A stretch of 36,803 bases of DNA from a virus: positions 1 through 36,803 of the IMG/VR virus record IMGVR_UViG_3300038701_001692; one strand, given 5' to 3'. Of the stretch, positions 2,772-32,381 are shown in pieces (the stretch's first letter is position 1; every line of letters starts with the position of its first letter). The notes under the pieces were generated by a model. That model ran no database searches. It was not told the DNA's origin and saw only the letters and a program-made list of their open reading frames with translations. A program made the position numbers and the translations under genes.

Positions 2772-5129
2772 ATGACAAAAGATACGATATTAGAAATAGC
2801 GGTTGCCTTTACGGCCCAGGCCCGGAGCTGGAAGAACAAAAAAATTAGCTGGGGTGATTTCCTGAATAAGTTGCGCACGCCGGTTGTTCGGGATATTACT
2901 TTTAAGGATTTCAAAGCCTTAACTAAAAAAGATGCGGCCCGGATAAAGGACGTTGGCGGATACGTTGGCGGATACCTTAGAGGGGGAAAGCGGAGCCCGT
3001 CGAATGTAAGTTACAGGCAACTATTAACGCTTGACATAGATTTTGCCACCCCGGATTTTTGGGAGGCTTTCAACTTCGTGTACGATTGCGAGGCGGTCCT
3101 TCACGGCACCATGAGCAGCGCGCCGGACGCGCCGAGATACCGGTTAATTATCCCGCTATCCCGTGAATGTAGCGCGGAGGAGTACGCTGCATTATCGCGT
3201 AAAGTGGCGGGCAGCGTTGGTATGGACTTCTTCGATAATACGACCTTCGAAGTAAACCGGCTAATGTACTGGCCGAGCGTCTGTTCTGATGTTTCCCCTG
3301 AATTAGAATACCAGGAGGGGGAGTGGTTAGACGTCGATGCGGTTCTTTCCACCTACAGGGATTGGCGCGATGTGGCGGAGTGGCCGACGAACAAACAAGC
3401 CGGGGAAGATATAAGGGCGAAGGCAGCAAAGCAGGAGGACCCCCTCGAGAAACGCGGGATCGTTGGCGCATTTTGCCGTACGCATTCAATCGAGGAAGCT
3501 ATTGAACAGTTTCTCGATCGCGTCTACACTCCGGGCGGCGAAGGCCGGTACACGTATCTCAATGGATCAACGGCAAACGGCTTAGTGGTCTATGATGGCA
3601 AATACGCTTATTCACACCATGGCACCGATCCGGCGGGCGGTTTGCTTTGTAACGCATTTGATCTGGTGCGTGTTCATCGGTTCGGCGAATTGGACAAAGC
3701 CCCAAACAGCCTGAAAAGTTTTAAGGCCATGGAAGAATTTTGCCTCCAAGACAAATCGGTAAAAAGCACGTTGGCACGCGAGTTAAAGGAAGCCTACGCC
3801 TCCGATTTTGAAGATGAAGCGGGCGAGGGATCGGAGGCACCGGGTACGGATTGGCTGGAAGACATGGACATGGATACACGCGGACAGGCGTTTTTGGCGA
3901 CGGCAAAAAACATAGATTTAGTTTTCTCAAATGACCCCGCGCTGAAAGGTTTGTTTGCGCTGAACCAATTTGATAACAAACCCGCCGTTCTGCGGTCTTC
4001 ACCCTGGCGTGAAATAAAAGAAGCGGAACCGATGCGGGACGTGGATCTTTCCGGGCTGCGAAATTACATTGAAAAGGCGTACGGCATAGCGGCGAAAGAA
4101 AAAGTGGCGGACTGCCTGAAATTGGAGTTACACCGAAACGCCTGGCACCCGATCCGGGAGTATCTGAACGGGCTAATTTGGGACGGTGAAAAGCGGGTGG
4201 ATCATTTGTTCATTGATTTCTTCGGCTGCGATAACACAGCATATTCCAGGGAGGCGGCCCGCAAAACGCTTTGCGGCGCGGTGGCGCGTGTATTCAGGCC
4301 GGGCGTGAAGTTCGATCTGGTCCCGGTGATAATAGGCGACGAAGGAATAATGAAAAGTACGTTTTGGGCGCGGTTGGGTGGGCGGTGGTACTCCGATACT
4401 TTTTTTAAGGTGGAGGGGAAAGAAGGCCTGGAGCAATTGCACGGGGCTTGGATTCTGGAAATAGCCGAGCTGGCCGGGCTTCGAAAGTCGGATGCCGAAA
4501 GCACAAAGCATTTTCTAACCAAGCAAATTGACCAATTCAGACCGGCATACGGGCATGTGATTGAAAGCTATCCGCGGCAGAATATCTTTGTGGGTACTAC
4601 CAATATCCGCGACTTTCTGAAAGACCCGACCGGCAACCGGAGGTTCCTGCCTATCCTTGCAAATATGGCTAACAGTACTAAGTCGGTCGATACCGATCTG
4701 GTAGGGGATACAATCCATCAAATTTGGGCCGAGGCGGCCCATTACTTCATGCAGGGCGAACGGTTGTATCTAGGTAGCGAAGCGGCGACCCAGGCGAAGG
4801 CCATACAGGCGGGGCACATGGAACGAGACGAGCGCGCCGGATTGATAGAACGGTTTTTGGACAAGCTGCTTCCCGAGGAATGGGATCAACTGGATACTTG
4901 GGAACGGCAAGCCTTTGCGGCGGATAGCAAGGAAACCGGAACGGTAGAGCGTACGCAGGTAACCGTTGCGGAAATTTGGTGCGAGTGCTTGGGCAAGAAC
5001 CGTGAAGGCATGAGCCGGTACAATACCCGAGAAATTAACGATCTACTCAAATCGCTGGGCTGGGTTTATACCGGAAGCGTTAAGAGCGTTCCTCTATACG
5101 GGAAGCAGCGAATTTTCACTAAAAACTAA
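2772..5129 (+). CDS. Primase-helicase (AEP-like primase N-terminus, VapE/SF3-like helicase C-terminus)
   Basis: 785 aa. The N-terminal domain has LDIDF near residue 88 (a DxD primase motif), then HGTMSSAPDAPRYRLIIPLS and LMYWPS, matching BT4734/Prim-Pol-like domains found ahead of VapE helicases. The C-terminal half has a P-loop GDEGIMKST at about 522-530, a Walker B-like WILEIAEL near 560, and the arginine/sensor region TTNIRDFLKDPTGNRRFLPI. The usual GK of the P-loop is MK here. It would prime and unwind at the fork together with the family A polymerase and ssDNA-binding protein. No replication initiator other than this is visible. Confidence 0.9.
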   Translation: MTKDTILEIAVAFTAQARSWKNKKISWGDFLNKLRTPVVRDITFKDFKALTKKDAARIKDVGGYVGGYLRGGKRSPSNVSYRQLLTLDIDFATPDFWEAFNFVYDCEAVLHGTMSSAPDAPRYRLIIPLSRECSAEEYAALSRKVAGSVGMDFFDNTTFEVNRLMYWPSVCSDVSPELEYQEGEWLDVDAVLSTYRDWRDVAEWPTNKQAGEDIRAKAAKQEDPLEKRGIVGAFCRTHSIEEAIEQFLDRVYTPGGEGRYTYLNGSTANGLVVYDGKYAYSHHGTDPAGGLLCNAFDLVRVHRFGELDKAPNSLKSFKAMEEFCLQDKSVKSTLARELKEAYASDFEDEAGEGSEAPGTDWLEDMDMDTRGQAFLATAKNIDLVFSNDPALKGLFALNQFDNKPAVLRSSPWREIKEAEPMRDVDLSGLRNYIEKAYGIAAKEKVADCLKLELHRNAWHPIREYLNGLIWDGEKRVDHLFIDFFGCDNTAYSREAARKTLCGAVARVFRPGVKFDLVPVIIGDEGIMKSTFWARLGGRWYSDTFFKVEGKEGLEQLHGAWILEIAELAGLRKSDAESTKHFLTKQIDQFRPAYGHVIESYPRQNIFVGTTNIRDFLKDPTGNRRFLPILANMANSTKSVDTDLVGDTIHQIWAEAAHYFMQGERLYLGSEAATQAKAIQAGHMERDERAGLIERFLDKLLPEEWDQLDTWERQAFAADSKETGTVERTQVTVAEIWCECLGKNREGMSRYNTREINDLLKSLGWVYTGSVKSVPLYGKQRIFTKN

Positions 5130-5134
5130 AAACT

Positions 5135-5770
5135 ATGGAAGAACTAAAAGTATTAAATTTATACGCCAGTTTAGGTGGGAACCGTTTTTGCTGGGACGAT
5201 GTGGCAAACGAATTCCAAATTAAAATAAAAGTCTTCGCCGTTGAGATAGATAAAAACTTAGGCGTTTTATACAAAACTAGATTCCCCAATGACACAGTGA
5301 TTATGGGGGACGCGCACGAATACCTTCTTCACAATTATTCCAAGTTTGATTTTATTTGGAGCTCCCCTCCGTGTCCTTCGCACAGTAAAGCGAGGTTCTG
5401 GAGGCGGAAATCAACGACGGCGTTATACCCCGATATGAAACTTTACCAAGAAATTTTATTTTTAAAATACTGGTTTTCGGGGGCTTATCTGGTGGAAAAT
5501 GTTGTGCCTTATTACGTGCCGTTAATACCCGCAAAAAAAATAGGTAGACACTTGTTTTGGTCTAACTTTGACATTCCGGAAAGCATTAATTTCCGAAAGC
5601 ATGCAATTATGGGCGGTTTGCGCGAACTTGACCAATGGTCGGAGTTTCATGCGTTCGATTTTAACCTCTACAGAGGCGAACAAAGGCGGGATAAAGTCGC
5701 GCGTAATTTAGTTGACTACCAATTAGGAGCGGATATATTCAGGCAATTTCTAAAAACTAAAAACTTGTGA
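5135..5770 (+). CDS. Small C5-cytosine DNA methyltransferase
   Basis: 211 aa. Motif I-like LNLYASLGGNRFCWD (SAM binding), motif IV SSPPCPSHS with the catalytic Cys, and motif VI-like VENV are present. The end (RGEQRRDKVARNLVDYQLGADIFRQFL) fits motifs VIII-X in compact form. Bacterial enzymes of this class usually exceed 300 aa; the target-recognition region is nearly absent. Likely marks phage DNA against restriction. Overlaps the next gene by 4 nt (GTGA). The leader carries the ACTAAAAACT tandem motif seen at two neighbouring gene junctions. Confidence 0.85.
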   Translation: MEELKVLNLYASLGGNRFCWDDVANEFQIKIKVFAVEIDKNLGVLYKTRFPNDTVIMGDAHEYLLHNYSKFDFIWSSPPCPSHSKARFWRRKSTTALYPDMKLYQEILFLKYWFSGAYLVENVVPYYVPLIPAKKIGRHLFWSNFDIPESINFRKHAIMGGLRELDQWSEFHAFDFNLYRGEQRRDKVARNLVDYQLGADIFRQFLKTKNL

Positions 5771-9254: not shown

Positions 9255-9473
9255 AATAATAATATAAAAAAGATATAGAGCAGTAAGGGGTATATAGATA
9301 GAATAGGGGTGTGATACATACACCCCTATACCCGCGAGGAGTTTTATAGGATTTTTGTTGCCTTTGTTTCCGGAATGCGTTAAACCTTTGATATTCAGGG
9401 CAATATACTGGCAACAAAGCAAGCGCATTGTTTCCGCTTGCATCCTGTTAATTTTTTTCGTAAAATTGGCCTA

Positions 9474-10070
9474 ATGAATTGGGCCAAGGTATCTATATCG
9501 AAAATCAAACGGAACCCGAACAATCCCAGGGTGATTAAAGATGGTAAGTTTGAAAAGCTCGTAAAGTCTATCCGGGAGTTTCCCGAAATGCTTGAGATAA
9601 GACCGATCGTTGTAAACGCCGATATGATTGTCCTGGGCGGCAACATGCGGCTAAAGGCATGCAAAGAAGCCGGGTTAAAGGAAATTCCCGTAATACAGGC
9701 CGCCGAACTAACCGAAGCGCAACAACGGGAATTTATCATTAAAGATAACGTGGGCTTCGGCGAATGGGATTGGGAACTGATTGCCAACGAATGGGACGCC
9801 GACGAGCTACAGGATTGGGGCTTGGATCTTCCCGGCTTTGAGGATGTGGAAGATTTAGGCACCGAGTTTAGTTTACCCGACGGGGACAAAGAGCCGTTTC
9901 AGCAAATGACATTTACCCTCGCCGATGAGCAGGCGACGGTTATAAAAAACGCCATTGATGACATAAAAGCAACGGAGGAGTATAAGTATGCCGAAACAAT
10001 GGGCAATGAAAACAGCAACGGGAATGCGCTTTATTTAATCATTATGCAATGGGCAGAGCAAAGGAGATAA
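9474..10070 (+). CDS. ParB-like N-terminal domain protein, partner of a DNA modification gene
   Basis: 198 aa from ATG 9474 (NWAKVSISKIKRNPNNPRV). The TTG-initiated extension to 9438 falls inside module copy A and is rejected. Residues about 5-95 form a ParB/Srx-like fold: NPNNPRVI, then IVLGGNMRLKACKEAG (the GGNxR turn), then FIIKDNVGFGEWDWE. In phages such proteins often pair with DNA modification enzymes rather than with ParA; no ParA is present. The C-terminus (MTFTLADEQATVIKNAI, NGNALYLIIMQW) is seen in similar phage proteins. Overlaps the Mom-like gene by 22 nt. Confidence 0.82.
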   Translation: MNWAKVSISKIKRNPNNPRVIKDGKFEKLVKSIREFPEMLEIRPIVVNADMIVLGGNMRLKACKEAGLKEIPVIQAAELTEAQQREFIIKDNVGFGEWDWELIANEWDADELQDWGLDLPGFEDVEDLGTEFSLPDGDKEPFQQMTFTLADEQATVIKNAIDDIKATEEYKYAETMGNENSNGNALYLIIMQWAEQRR

Positions 10071-10789
10071 CCGTTAAAGTCATACCCGCTAAAGTCGCAA
10101 CGGAGTTTGTGGAAAAACACCATTACAGCGGCAGGGTTGTTAATAATAGTTCGCTCCATTTTGGAGCTTTTTTAGATGGTAAGCTTCACGGCGTTATGTC
10201 ATTTGGGAGCCCGATGGATAAGCGAAAGGTTTTACCGCTCGTGCAACCATCGCCTTGGAACGGAATGCTTGAATTAAACCGGATGGCGTTTGATGATTAC
10301 CTACCCCGAAATTCAGAAAGCCGCTGCATATCTATAGCGATTAGACTAATACGCAAAAACGCGCCTCACATAAAATGGATTCTTTCATTTTCGGACGGAA
10401 CGCAGTGCGGCGACGGAACTATTTACAGGGCGTCGGGCTTTGTATTAACGGGCGTATCTGTAAACAGAACGATTTATGTTTTTCCAAACGGAGAGACTAT
10501 AGCCGATATAGCTTGGAATAGCGCAACGCCTGCGGCTCAGAAAAAATACGCCCAAAGACTTGGAATACCGGAACCGGATTTGGGGTGCTTTCTCAGTAGA
10601 AACGCAAAAAAAGCAGGCGGTCGGCGTATGGAAGGTTTTCAGCTCCGGTACATTTATTTAATAGATAAAGCGTGCAAAATAACCGTTCCGATATTACCGT
10701 TTAGCAAAATCGACGAACTTGGGGCGGGTATGTACCGGGGCGAAAAATCGGCGGTGATCGAAAGAAAACTAAATGCGCAAATGGGGTAA
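10049..10789 (+). CDS. Mom-like DNA adenine modification protein (GNAT fold)
   Basis: 246 aa. Shows the Mom-type layout: VEKHHYSGRVV, HFGAFLDGKLHGVMSFGSP, ELNRMAFDDYLPRNSES, then IKWILSFSDGTQCGDGTIYRASGF. Phage Mu Mom converts adenine to N6-methylcarbamoyl-adenine and so blocks restriction; the family has an acyltransferase-like fold. The overlap with the ParB-like gene suggests they work together. With the C5-methyltransferase at 5135, the phage carries two distinct DNA-protection routes. Chemistry of the product is inferred from the family only. Confidence 0.8.
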   Translation: MGRAKEITVKVIPAKVATEFVEKHHYSGRVVNNSSLHFGAFLDGKLHGVMSFGSPMDKRKVLPLVQPSPWNGMLELNRMAFDDYLPRNSESRCISIAIRLIRKNAPHIKWILSFSDGTQCGDGTIYRASGFVLTGVSVNRTIYVFPNGETIADIAWNSATPAAQKKYAQRLGIPEPDLGCFLSRNAKKAGGRRMEGFQLRYIYLIDKACKITVPILPFSKIDELGAGMYRGEKSAVIERKLNAQMG

Positions 10790-20251: not shown

Positions 20252-20668
20252 ATGGGAAAAAGAACGTTGCTACTGATCCGGGACGATAAATCCGACAAAC
20301 AAACAAAAGGCCGTTTGTCGGCACTCGATGAAAACGGGGCCGTTGTGTATTCCTGCTTTACGCTCGAATTGCCATGGAGGGGGAACCAGCAAAATGTTTC
20401 CTGCATACCGCCGGGCCGGTACAAAGTAAAAAAGCGAATTAGCCATAAGTACGGCGAACATTTGCATATTTTGGAAGTTCCGGGCCGGGCTTACATTTTA
20501 ATCCACGAGGCGAATTTTGTTTCCCAGCTTCGCGGGTGCATAGCCGTCGGCAAATCGAAAGCTGACATTAACGGCGACGGCATCCGGGATCTTGTTGGAT
20601 CCGTCCGGGCAAAAAAGGAATTGTTAAAGCATTTGCCCGATGAAACCGAGATAGAGATAAAGCCATGA
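20252..20668 (+). CDS. DUF5675 family protein, candidate endolysin or cell-wall enzyme
   Basis: 138 aa, DUF5675 pattern: CFTLELPWRGNQQNVSCIPPGRYKVKKR (in pieces), HLHILEVPGRAYILIHEANF, RGCIAVGKSKADINGDGIRDL. His85 in LIHEAN and Cys96 in RGCI recall the His...GC spacing of L,D-transpeptidase-type active sites, but no enzyme activity is known to me for the family. No signal peptide. It overlaps the u-spanin candidate by 4 nt (ATGA), and no other endolysin is recognisable in the genome, so this is the best candidate for the wall-degrading enzyme. The DINGDGIRD stretch looks like a calcium-binding loop. Confidence 0.75.
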   Translation: MGKRTLLLIRDDKSDKQTKGRLSALDENGAVVYSCFTLELPWRGNQQNVSCIPPGRYKVKKRISHKYGEHLHILEVPGRAYILIHEANFVSQLRGCIAVGKSKADINGDGIRDLVGSVRAKKELLKHLPDETEIEIKP

Positions 20669-21162
20669 GACCGTTAATTTTTGTACCGCTTATTCTTTGC
20701 GCGTGTAATACGCAGAAGCAAACAACCCGGAGCCGGGCGGAAATTAAAACAAATACCGAATTGAAAACTATTCAAATAGATGAAAGAGATTATCAAAAAG
20801 CCGTGCAACTTAAAAGGGCAAAAGACACCCAAGCCGGAACGCGTTCGATTATCGATATTGTCCCCAGGGGAGCTTTCCGAATTTCGAGCGATGGCACTTT
20901 TGAGGGCGAAGCATTACAGATTAGGATACACCGCAGGGACACCGCCCGAGCGCGTGAAGCCTTAGAAATAAACACAGCGGAAGCGGACCGGGGGCAAACC
21001 CAAACGACCAAAACGGAAAAGGCGAACGAAGCCCTTTCTATCCAGGAAACTGAAAAGCAAGTGGAAAGAGCCCCTAATTTTTACATTTGGATCGGGGCGG
21101 CCCTGGGCGTTTTGCTAATCGTTGCAGGCCTTCGAATTTTTACAAAATTGATCCCTCGCTAA
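20665..21162 (+). CDS. Candidate unimolecular spanin (u-spanin)
   Basis: 165 aa. Short signal MRPLIFVPLILCA then Cys14; LCAC fits a lipobox, so the mature N-terminus would be lipid-anchored in the outer membrane. The C-terminus has one membrane segment, about 139-159 (FYIWIGAALGVLLIVAGLRIF), ending in a basic tail, which would sit in the inner membrane. The ~120 residues between are charged and periplasmic. Lipid anchor at one end and inner-membrane span at the other is the defining layout of u-spanins, which fuse the membranes in the last lysis step of Gram-negative hosts. Coupled to the DUF5675 gene. Confidence 0.7.
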   Translation: MRPLIFVPLILCACNTQKQTTRSRAEIKTNTELKTIQIDERDYQKAVQLKRAKDTQAGTRSIIDIVPRGAFRISSDGTFEGEALQIRIHRRDTARAREALEINTAEADRGQTQTTKTEKANEALSIQETEKQVERAPNFYIWIGAALGVLLIVAGLRIFTKLIPR

Positions 21163-21311
21163 AACCGGCCCGGAAAAATGTTATTGAGCCATCCGGTTAA
21201 ATCTTTTCCTGTGGCTATGTAGTACCCGGCGAATAATGGGAAACCGAATACCAAAATGAAAAGGGCAAAAAAAGCGACTACCGTCGCGGCTATTCTACTA
21301 ACGTACTTCAT
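21159..21311 (-). CDS. 50-aa membrane protein on minus strand
   Basis: Begins MKYVSRIAATVVAFFALFIL, with hydrophobic residues continuing to about position 33 (VFGFPLFAGYYI), then a polar tail TGKDLTGWLNNIFPGRF. One or two closely packed membrane helices. It starts 4 nt after the stop of the ribbon-helix-helix gene and ends overlapping the u-spanin stop on the other strand. Possibly an antiholin, superinfection-exclusion or other membrane-modifying protein; the sequence does not decide. Confidence 0.6.
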   Translation of the reverse strand: MKYVSRIAATVVAFFALFILVFGFPLFAGYYIATGKDLTGWLNNIFPGRF

Positions 21312-21315
21312 GGGA

Positions 21316-21456
21316 TTAGGAGTTTAAATATTTGTGGATTAGCGATTTTAGTACACTGGTTTGCGTTTTGCTTTCCTTTTTTACCTTAGCGGCAAACCGC
21401 TCTTTGAGGTTTTTCGGAAGATGCACCTTAACCTGATCTAATTCGTTTTTGCCCAC
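21316..21456 (-). CDS. Ribbon-helix-helix (CopG/Arc-like) DNA-binding protein
   Basis: 46 aa from a GTG start. Strand LDQVKVHLPKNL, then helices KERFAAKVKKES and TSVLKSLIHKYLN: the short ribbon-helix-helix pattern with a 'hLP..L...f' beginning. A family of this size forms dimers that bind short inverted repeats. It heads a two-gene minus-strand unit, the only leftward coding in the genome, next to an AT-rich divergent gap (21457-21520). Candidate regulator of that gap, or of the TATTGT-AA-ACAATA repeats in modules A and B. Confidence 0.65.
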   Translation of the reverse strand: MGKNELDQVKVHLPKNLKERFAAKVKKESKTQTSVLKSLIHKYLNS

Positions 21457-24665: not shown

Positions 24666-24696
24666 AGCCCTACCCTTTTTTGGGCGGGGCTTTTTT
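24666..24696 (+). terminator. Intrinsic terminator after 199-aa structural gene
   Basis: AGCCCTACCC and GGGCGGGGCT form a stem with one mismatch around a T6 loop, followed by TTTTTT. With the 23997 terminator it isolates the 199-aa gene as its own transcript segment. Confidence 0.85.
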
Positions 24697-24724
24697 CTTA
24701 TATTACCAAAAAAAATTATGCGTT

Positions 24725-25006
24725 ATGGCTTATAAGTTCAAAAAGCAATACGAAAACCAAACGGTTGTACTGGCAGACGGTACACTGATAGACAAAGAAA
24801 GCATTAACCGGCCTTCGGTTAAAGCCAAAATAAATAGCGGCGTTTGGTTTGCCTACATGCTGGAGGAGGCCAAACCCGAGGAGGCCAAACCCGAGGAGGC
24901 CAAACCCGAGGAGGCCAAACCCGAGGAGGCCAAACCCGAGGAGGCCAAACCCGAGGAGGCCAAACCCGAAGAGGCCAAACCCAAAAAACGAACCCGAAAA
25001 AAGTAA
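24725..25006 (+). CDS. Small protein with EEAKP pentapeptide tandem repeats
   Basis: 93 aa from ATG 24725; the frame's earlier ATG at 24680 lies inside the terminator tail and is rejected. N-terminal 45 residues form a small folded part (YKFKKQYENQTVVLADGTLID, ESINRPSVKAKINSG), then eight copies of EEAKP and a basic end KKRTRKK. The repeats make an extended acidic/basic linker. It sits between the structural gene and portal, so a virion-linked or head-tail role is likely. The start of the portal gene follows after 6 nt. Confidence 0.65.
   Translation: MAYKFKKQYENQTVVLADGTLIDKESINRPSVKAKINSGVWFAYMLEEAKPEEAKPEEAKPEEAKPEEAKPEEAKPEEAKPEEAKPKKRTRKK
24863..24982 (+). repeat. Eight 15-bp tandem repeats (EEAKP)
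   Basis: Unit GAGGAGGCCAAACCC; the last copy begins GAA instead of GAG. Repeat copy number is prone to change by slippage. Confidence 0.9.
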
Positions 25007-29448: not shown

Positions 29449-29829
29449 ATGGCAACGGCAATAGTTGATAAAATAGGCGTTTTGAATATTGAATTGAGGC
29501 AGGGCGACACAAGGCCGATCTATCTTACATTCAATCAAACACCGCCCAGCGGGGGGAGTGAACCGATGGACCTTACCGGATTCACGGCAATTCGGCTGGA
29601 TGTCAAAACGCGCAAAGATATTGCCGAAGCCCCTTTTGTATCCTGGCAAATTGGCAACGGGCTCACTATTTCGGGTGCAGATAATAATGTACTTAGTTTT
29701 CAGTTTAATGCCGAATTTACGAGAACCGCCGCGCCTGGTTGGTTCTATGATATTAAGTTCACAAGGCCCAGCGGCATTATGCATTTGATTGAAGGCACGA
29801 TAACAGTTCAACCAGTCGCGACAAAATGA
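29449..29829 (+). CDS. BppU-like N-terminal baseplate/fibre attachment protein
   Basis: 126 aa. LNIELRQGDTRPIYLTFNQTPP, MDLTGFTAIRLDVKTR, then WFYDIKFTRPSG and LIEGTITVQPVAT fit the beta-sandwich domain at the N-terminus of baseplate upper proteins ('l.qGDt..i...l', 'DLTG', 'Gt..v'). Here the domain stands alone. It probably links fibres to the virion. ATGA overlap with the next gene. Confidence 0.65.
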   Translation: MATAIVDKIGVLNIELRQGDTRPIYLTFNQTPPSGGSEPMDLTGFTAIRLDVKTRKDIAEAPFVSWQIGNGLTISGADNNVLSFQFNAEFTRTAAPGWFYDIKFTRPSGIMHLIEGTITVQPVATK

Positions 29830-30353
29830 GCGAAGTAACGATAACACAAGACGGGCCGTATCCGATATTCTACACCGTACAGGTGGAGCTATCACCGGAA
29901 GCGGCGGCGAAGCAATACGCGGAAGAAGCGGAAGCCTCCGCCAGCGCGGCGGCAGCGTCGGCTACCAGTGCGGGTGAAAGCGCAACGGCAGCGGCGGCCT
30001 CCGCCAGCGCGGCAGCTACAAGCGCGGGCGAAGCGGCTACCAGCGCGGGCGAAGCGGCAGCCTCCGCCAGCGCGGCAGCTACGAGCGCGGGCGAAGCGGC
30101 CGGAAGCGCAACGGCGGCCGCTACGAGTGCAGGCGAAGCGGCTACCAGCGCAGGCGAAGCGGCTACCAGCGCAGGCGAAGCGGCTACCAGCGCAGGCGAA
30201 GCAGAAACCGCAAAGGCGTACCTGGAATCTTTTCTATTCCATTACGTAAGCGACGACGCGACAGCGGTCCGGGTGGGCATCGGTACGCAAGTGCTAGTAA
30301 GCGAAAGCACAACGGGATATCCGAGTGTAATACTTGAACTTTCAACAAGCTAA
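29826..30353 (+). CDS. Ala/Ser/Gly/Glu-rich repeat tail-fibre protein
   Basis: 175 aa. After a short beta N-terminus (ITQDGPYPIFYTVQVELSP), residues about 30-130 are Ala/Ser/Thr/Gly/Glu repeats built on SAGEAAT and SAAAT units, which form a long trimeric helical shaft in similar fibres. The end (RVGIGTQVLVSESTTGYPSV) returns to a beta form. The shaft DNA is repetitive, so its length can vary between isolates. Part of a chain of overlapping fibre genes. Confidence 0.65.
   Translation: MSEVTITQDGPYPIFYTVQVELSPEAAAKQYAEEAEASASAAAASATSAGESATAAAASASAAATSAGEAATSAGEAAASASAAATSAGEAAGSATAAATSAGEAATSAGEAATSAGEAATSAGEAETAKAYLESFLFHYVSDDATAVRVGIGTQVLVSESTTGYPSVILELSTS
29935..30205 (+). repeat. Degenerate short tandem repeats in fibre gene
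   Basis: Repeats of about 21 bp encoding SAGEAAT-type units, with the last four copies nearly identical (about 30121-30200). Recent expansion likely. Confidence 0.75.
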
Positions 30354-32171: not shown

Positions 32172-32381
32172 ATGAACCATTTAGATTCTTTTGATTACAT
32201 TTTGGGGCTGGCCGCCGTTGGCACGCTCGTTTCAATTATCGAAATGAATGAGGCATTACGGTTTTTGATTTTGCTTGCAACTTTTCTGGGTATTCTGGTA
32301 AAGACGTGGGAGCAAATTAAAAATTCAGGCCATTTTCTCAAAGATATAAAGTCGCTATGGGGCCGGATCAAAAGAAAATAA
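32172..32381 (+). CDS. Small two-span membrane protein, candidate holin
   Basis: 69 aa. Hydrophobic helices about residues 9-27 (YILGLAAVGTLVSIIEM) and 30-47 (LRFLILLATFLGILVKTW), a short turn between them, then a basic C-terminus (SLWGRIKRK). This layout suits a class II holin. It overlaps the 50-aa gene at 32357 by 25 nt in another frame. The lysis enzymes lie far away (20.3-21.2 kb), so membership of the lysis system is inferred only from the topology. Confidence 0.55.
   Translation: MNHLDSFDYILGLAAVGTLVSIIEMNEALRFLILLATFLGILVKTWEQIKNSGHFLKDIKSLWGRIKRK

Follow-up and report, generated by a model that had tools for sequence, protein, structure and literature searches.

A DUF5675 gene coupled to a u-spanin-like gene

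The window, by which we mean the whole 36,803-base stretch of viral DNA analysed here, carries a DUF5675 gene directly after the tape measure gene and surrounded by tail genes. The features of this locus, together with a candidate holin gene located elsewhere in the genome, are:

20252..20668, + strand: DUF5675 protein, 138 aa long; putative endolysin whose cysteine site would be of the L,D-transpeptidase type (YkuD/Csd6-like) (Pfam; swaps in relatives; structure model)
20504..20506, + strand: CAC codon of His85, proposed general base (invariant in 71 members; placed by HHalign on the YkuD catalytic His)
20537..20539, + strand: TGC codon of Cys96, proposed nucleophile (at least 90% conserved; placed by HHalign on the YkuD catalytic Cys)
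20665..20668, + strand: ATGA overlap, with the spanin start on the DUF5675 stop; translational coupling (from the sequence)
20665..21162, + strand: u-spanin-like outer-membrane lipoprotein of 165 aa with a C-terminal transmembrane (TM) helix (lipobox-like Cys14, TM 141-159; homologues)
32172..32381, + strand: candidate holin of 69 aa with two hydrophobic segments and a basic tail (layout only, weak)

The product of ORF 20252-20668 matches PF18925 (DUF5675) with an E-value of 4.7e-26 and 91.3 bits, well above the curated cut-off of 26.7, and also matches phrog_1501, a family of unknown function. In the family alignment (71 members), E39, Y57, H85 and G95 are invariant, and C96 is conserved in at least 90% of the proteins. 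The window protein has no signal peptide, and its structure was predicted with a pLDDT of 97.

The 165-aa protein encoded immediately downstream starts with a lipobox-like segment (..LILCAC-N). Judged from its sequence, it appears to combine the features expected of a u-spanin, namely an N-terminal lipobox and a C-terminal TM helix in a single protein that is coupled to an endolysin. Close homologues adjoin DUF5675 at the same place in two other loci (L002 and L014), while a scan of viral contigs with the window spanin gave no match. The pairing of DUF5675 with a coupled protein of u-spanin layout, as described in the initial annotation, is thus borne out by the PF18925 match, the ATGA overlap, the lipobox-like start and TM segment 141-159, as well as by the neighbour survey presented below. 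Right behind the spanin gene, two small ORFs (50 and 46 aa) lie on the minus strand (21159-21456), one with a TM helix and the other basic.

No holin gene adjoins the DUF5675–spanin pair in the window genome. Our guess for the holin is the putative 69-aa product of 32172-32381, which has no Pfam or PHROG match. We also considered this protein as possible kin of the TM neighbours of DUF5675 in other genomes and found no similarity.

The last 127 nt of the window repeat the first 127 nt, with a sole mismatch at base 1, and a DNA polymerase ORF crosses the join of the ends; the genome is therefore apparently complete (circularly). Pfam scans, which cover part of the window genes only, assigned its other main ORFs to polymerase, terminase, protease, methylase, Mom and similar families. 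In agreement with the earlier statement that the genome encodes no known wall hydrolase, no wall-type muramidase, amidase or peptidase was detected among these ORFs. Other products of the genome are a DNA modification protein of the Mom family with a ParB_N protein next to it and, at another place, a C5 cytosine methylase (10049-10789, 9438-10070, 5135-5770); a possible role of the Mom-family protein and the methylase is genome protection. Highly repetitive proteins with EEAKP and SATSAGEAA repeats are encoded at 24680-25006 and 29826-30353, beside the portal gene and in the tail-end region.

DUF5675 is exchanged for known endolysin genes

The strongest evidence for reading DUF5675 as an endolysin comes from comparisons of closely related phages. 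Across three phage groups, the DUF5675 gene is exchanged precisely for a GH108 lysozyme, Peptidase_M15_3 or Amidase_2 gene, with near-identical flanks. These endolysins occupy the same lysis-cassette slot as DUF5675 in otherwise near-identical phages, but they are unrelated to it in sequence and belong to other catalytic types (glycosidase or zinc enzymes).

The first group comprises Mu-like phages. In Vibrio phage martha 12B12, DUF5675 lies in the slot that holds a GH108 lysozyme with a PG_binding_3 domain in 1.028.O, and the DNA of the two phages is 97-98% identical on both flanks of this slot. Shewanella MuM16-2 likewise carries GH108 in the position held by DUF5675 in martha 12B12. Downstream of the martha-type lysis slot lies a gene for a DUF2730 protein, the family of the Mu gp25 releasin; the endolysin gp22 is the sole Mu lysis gene known from mutant screens (PMC9239132). 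A second difference between martha and 1.028.O concerns a neighbouring gene of unknown family, which is of similar size and type in both phages. The martha-specific genes that occur in L009 outside its regulatory end were all scanned, and none matches a lysin family.

In the second group, a tail protein is 100% identical between 1.157.O and 1.228.O, two phages of V. breoganii. The slot contains DUF5675 in 1.157.O, Peptidase_M15_3 in 1.228.O and Amidase_2 in the sibling phage 1.240.O. Between 1.157.O and 1.228.O, DNA identity is 95-98% as far as base 3 of the DUF5675 gene and returns to this level 9 bases before the gene end, and the TM genes adjoining the swapped gene are near-identical. The endolysin slot by the TM gene is a clean swap point in these phages (L270, L273, L274), with at least three enzyme types.

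The third group consists of V. cyclitrophicus phages, with a holin and DUF5675 in 1.122.A, a TM protein and M15_3 in 1.214.O, and a holin and GH108 in 1.247.A; their shared flanks stop at the cassette edges. The pair 1.122.A and 1.232.O was rejected as an example of displacement because the lysin lies on the opposite strand, and 1.214.O and 1.247.A, which are closer siblings, were taken instead.

Lysin exclusion, gene neighbours and domain fusions

We further examined six lysin families in 36 viral records. They were found in none of the 26 records with DUF5675 and in eight of the ten terminase relatives without it (one-sided exact P ~1.5e-6, for records that are not independent and many of which are fragments). 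The scans for PF11860 and PF05838 matched no control genome, so that the absence of these two families is less weighty.

A survey of gene neighbours, proposed in the initial annotation, revealed enrichment for holins and u-spanins. Under a fixed scoring rule that relies on simple hydrophobicity rules, upstream neighbours of at most 220 aa with TM helices were found at 28 of 35 loci, compared with 32 of 256 background proteins (P 3e-16). Downstream neighbours with u-spanin layout were present in 7/22 viral loci versus 1/157 size-matched background proteins (P ~1e-6). Curated holin families lie next to DUF5675 upstream in eight of 60 loci and downstream in two of 59, and the closest relative (L002) carries Phage_holin_4_1, DUF5675 and the homologous spanin in a row. 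DUF5675 occupies the endolysin position in lysis cassettes and is genetically linked to holin and spanin.

In one Cytophagaceae genome, two genes encode fusions of an N-acetylmuramidase domain (PF11860) with DUF5675 (L095 4657-6387 and L097 308-1525). Together with the swaps in three phage groups, the lysin exclusion and the holin and spanin neighbours, these fusions strongly support the earlier proposal that DUF5675 is a candidate endolysin. At another locus, the gene adjoining DUF5675 (L102 6327-6983) carries a further YkuD-like domain and resembles PHROG endolysin family 33083 in the C-terminal portion of the latter.

A putative active site of the L,D-transpeptidase type

His85 and Cys96 had been likened to the active site of L,D-transpeptidases (LDTs). 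In an HHalign comparison of DUF5675 with a YkuD profile made from domains of 13 genomes, H85 and C96 fall on the catalytic His and Cys with a score of 23.5, which was reached by 0 of 200 column shuffles (best shuffle 18.0). By our own reading, DUF5675 also shares with YkuD a P.G.[FY] motif N-terminal of the superposed His...GC. The window protein had no match to the Pfam family PF03734 (YkuD), not even at E <= 1, sequence searches of the PDB retrieved no relative of DUF5675, and a Foldseek search of the PDB with the window model returned only noise, with no match at E <= 0.001.

The confident model of L109, a divergent member with a longer His-Cys loop, retrieved Helicobacter pylori Csd6 (4XZZ) as the first Foldseek match (prob 1.00, E 0.017, TM 0.53), with the runner-up at prob 0.08. 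Csd6 is an L,D-carboxypeptidase in which His160 and Cys176 are essential (PMC4599014). The fold link between DUF5675 and Csd6 suggested by this model is good, though short of overwhelming. Against the viral structure library BFVD, the window model retrieved a crAss protein labelled 'L,D-carboxypeptidase/transpeptidase' and, with prob 0.99, the C-terminal region of an endolysin from a Nodularia phage. The latter, gp079 of Nodularia phage kac68v162 (L264 5328-6581), matches PF03734 weakly in its C-terminal domain (E 0.0021). Unlike DUF5675, this YkuD-like domain is an extra behind a Phage_lysozyme domain, and it does not score as PF18925.

The motif described for L,D-transpeptidase domains, H(S/G/D)X14-19C (PMC4599014), implies a His-to-Cys distance of 16-21. 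In DUF5675 this distance is 19 in 11 loci (e.g. HSGN...THVQGC in L109), 20 in three and 11 in the window protein. The spacing of 19 in one clade of the family thus lies inside the motif range, whereas that of the window protein is shorter. Of the earlier comparison with the L,D-transpeptidase site, the likeness of the two residues was supported by the profile comparison and the Csd6 fold match, and the spacing in the window protein departs from the motif. The Cys is replaced by Gly in three members from Flavobacteriia genomes (L118, L120, L139) and by Ser in the muramidase fusion L097.

Our alignment also revealed that DUF5675 lacks the arginine found in the GCIR motif of YkuD. LD-transpeptidases keep this conserved active-site Arg, and it is absent in the YkuD-type amidase DpaA (PMC12729407). 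By analogy with DpaA, the loss suggests that DUF5675 would be a hydrolase rather than a transpeptidase. E. coli DpaA (LdtF) is itself an LDT-type enzyme acting as a hydrolase, but it is cellular, detaches Braun lipoprotein and is no lysin. In contrast to Csd6 and YkuD, DUF5675 is a compact single domain that lacks both a signal peptide and the Arg after GCI, and it resides in lysis cassettes. On the basis of motif and fold, we file DUF5675 as LDT-like, a label that makes no claim to formal PF03734 membership.

Proposed mechanism and alternative explanations

We propose that the DUF5675 gene encodes the endolysin of the window phage, which would be an LDT-type cysteine enzyme acting before the u-spanin (probability about 0.87). 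Sequence and comparative genomics show how the cassette is laid out, that DUF5675 and known endolysin genes are interchangeable, and that the LDT-like His/Cys pair is conserved; from these we infer that the protein is catalytic, which bond it cuts, which protein is the holin and in what order the steps occur. Since it has no signal peptide, the protein would be expected to wait in the cytoplasm until the holin opens the inner membrane. Once in the periplasm, the enzyme would cleave the stem peptide of the peptidoglycan at an L,D bond, with Cys96, activated by His85, as the attacking residue. The likeliest target would be mDAP3-D-Ala4 in cross-linked stems, and the other candidate is L-Ala1-D-Glu2. 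Both candidates are L,D bonds, and hydrolysis of the acyl-enzyme would open the cross-links. In the last step, the co-translated u-spanin would fuse the inner and outer membranes.

Csd6 itself only trims peptide stems and is not lytic. Its position as the closest solved fold, being that of an L,D-carboxypeptidase, would fit an alternative in which DUF5675 is a lysis effector that poisons the wall by L,D-carboxypeptidase activity or D-amino-acid exchange, in the manner of Tlde1, with lysis resulting from blocked wall synthesis. A precedent is the effector Tlde1a, a small protein made up of an LDT fold alone, which damages the wall through dual L,D-carboxypeptidase and exchange activity and has Csd6 as its nearest structural homologue (PMC9638812); it is, however, delivered by a T6SS. 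We regard wall poisoning as improbable, because DUF5675 substitutes one for one for GH108, M15 and Amidase_2 enzymes while the holin and TM genes next to it are unchanged or equivalent, and because, like the YkuD amidase DpaA (PMC12729407), it lacks the Arg after GCI.

Still less probable is that DUF5675 is an accessory lysis protein and that the true endolysin is another, unrecognised gene. Phages are known to contain lysis genes of unknown type, and the partial Pfam coverage of the window genes would leave room for one. However, the swap between 1.157.O and 1.228.O is limited to one gene within the 95-98% identical flanks, and the lysin-free set of martha-specific genes in L009 outside its regulatory end likewise speaks against a second enzyme.

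The location right behind the tape measure gene, amid tail genes, and the homologue in Ralstonia phage RP31, in which the DUF5675 domain is part of a very long protein, could point to a virion-associated wall-opening or injection component acting at entry, which we consider very unlikely given the lysis-cassette swaps, the coupling to spanin and holin, and gp30, the DUF5675 protein of Cellulophaga phage phi39:1, which bears no virion MS/MS mark in a record where many tail proteins are marked. On this MS/MS annotation, DUF5675 was rejected as a component of the virion structure; some members may be virion-borne, as the long RP31 protein indicates.

Distribution of the family

With the window protein as query, tblastn found relatives in 148 phage records (E <= 1e-3), and with a divergent member in 191. 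Scans of viral contigs yielded 288 relatives, of which 80 were retained, and scans of GTDB genomes yielded 51, from Bacteroidota, Desulfobacterota and others. Phages with DUF5675 include those of Vibrio, Cellulophaga, Salinibacter, Campylobacter, Rheinheimera, Alteromonas and Microcystis, as well as crAss-like phages and several microviruses, and the initial description of a family of Bacteroidota phages is hence too narrow. The crAss-like relatives carry the annotation 'transpeptidase catalytic domain protein' (tblastn E 8e-7).

Endolysin function would extend beyond the window phage: DUF5675 very probably constitutes a class of lysis enzymes that is widespread among phages but has gone unlabelled. 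Neither Pfam nor PHROGs provides a lysin name for DUF5675, and NCBIfam gave no name. In open-licence full texts, DUF5675 is mentioned in two papers, in neither with a lysis role, and we found there no prior claim of lysis by DUF5675, a YkuD endolysin or a crAss transpeptidase. In our reading, DUF5675 would be an endolysin whose core is a domain of the L,D-transpeptidase type. We lean towards the broader view that the whole family is one endolysin class, in which an LDT-type cysteine fold has turned into a lytic cross-link endopeptidase that is exchanged among tailed dsDNA phages of multiple phyla and carried by ssDNA microviruses. Among deposited phages, well over a hundred, crAss-like ones among them, have a DUF5675 protein called hypothetical or transpeptidase, and many of these phages apparently lack any known lysin. 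If the family were recognised, such genomes would gain their missing lysis enzyme and the endolysin repertoire a further catalytic type. Recognition would also raise the questions of how a domain of the L,D-transpeptidase type turns lytic and by what means some microviruses lyse host cells.

In ssDNA microviruses, DUF5675 is encoded at 1678-2067 of PV067912.1 (L004), 3009-3419 of MH992181.1 (L271) and 3955-4380 of L010; in the first two, it sits between the major capsid and pilot protein genes. M15_3 peptidases have been reported in Microviridae (PMC3394797), and in parallel to these the microvirus DUF5675 proteins are candidate lysis enzymes. If true, they would represent a lysis route different from that of the phiX174 E protein.

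A separate clade is found in Bacteroidota genomes (L103, L104, L112, L118, L119, L121, L122, L126, L139). Here, DUF5675 has an upstream gene of ~251-253 aa and a downstream small TM gene, mostly with two helices, and the Cys is lost in some members. This clade perhaps has a role other than phage lysis.
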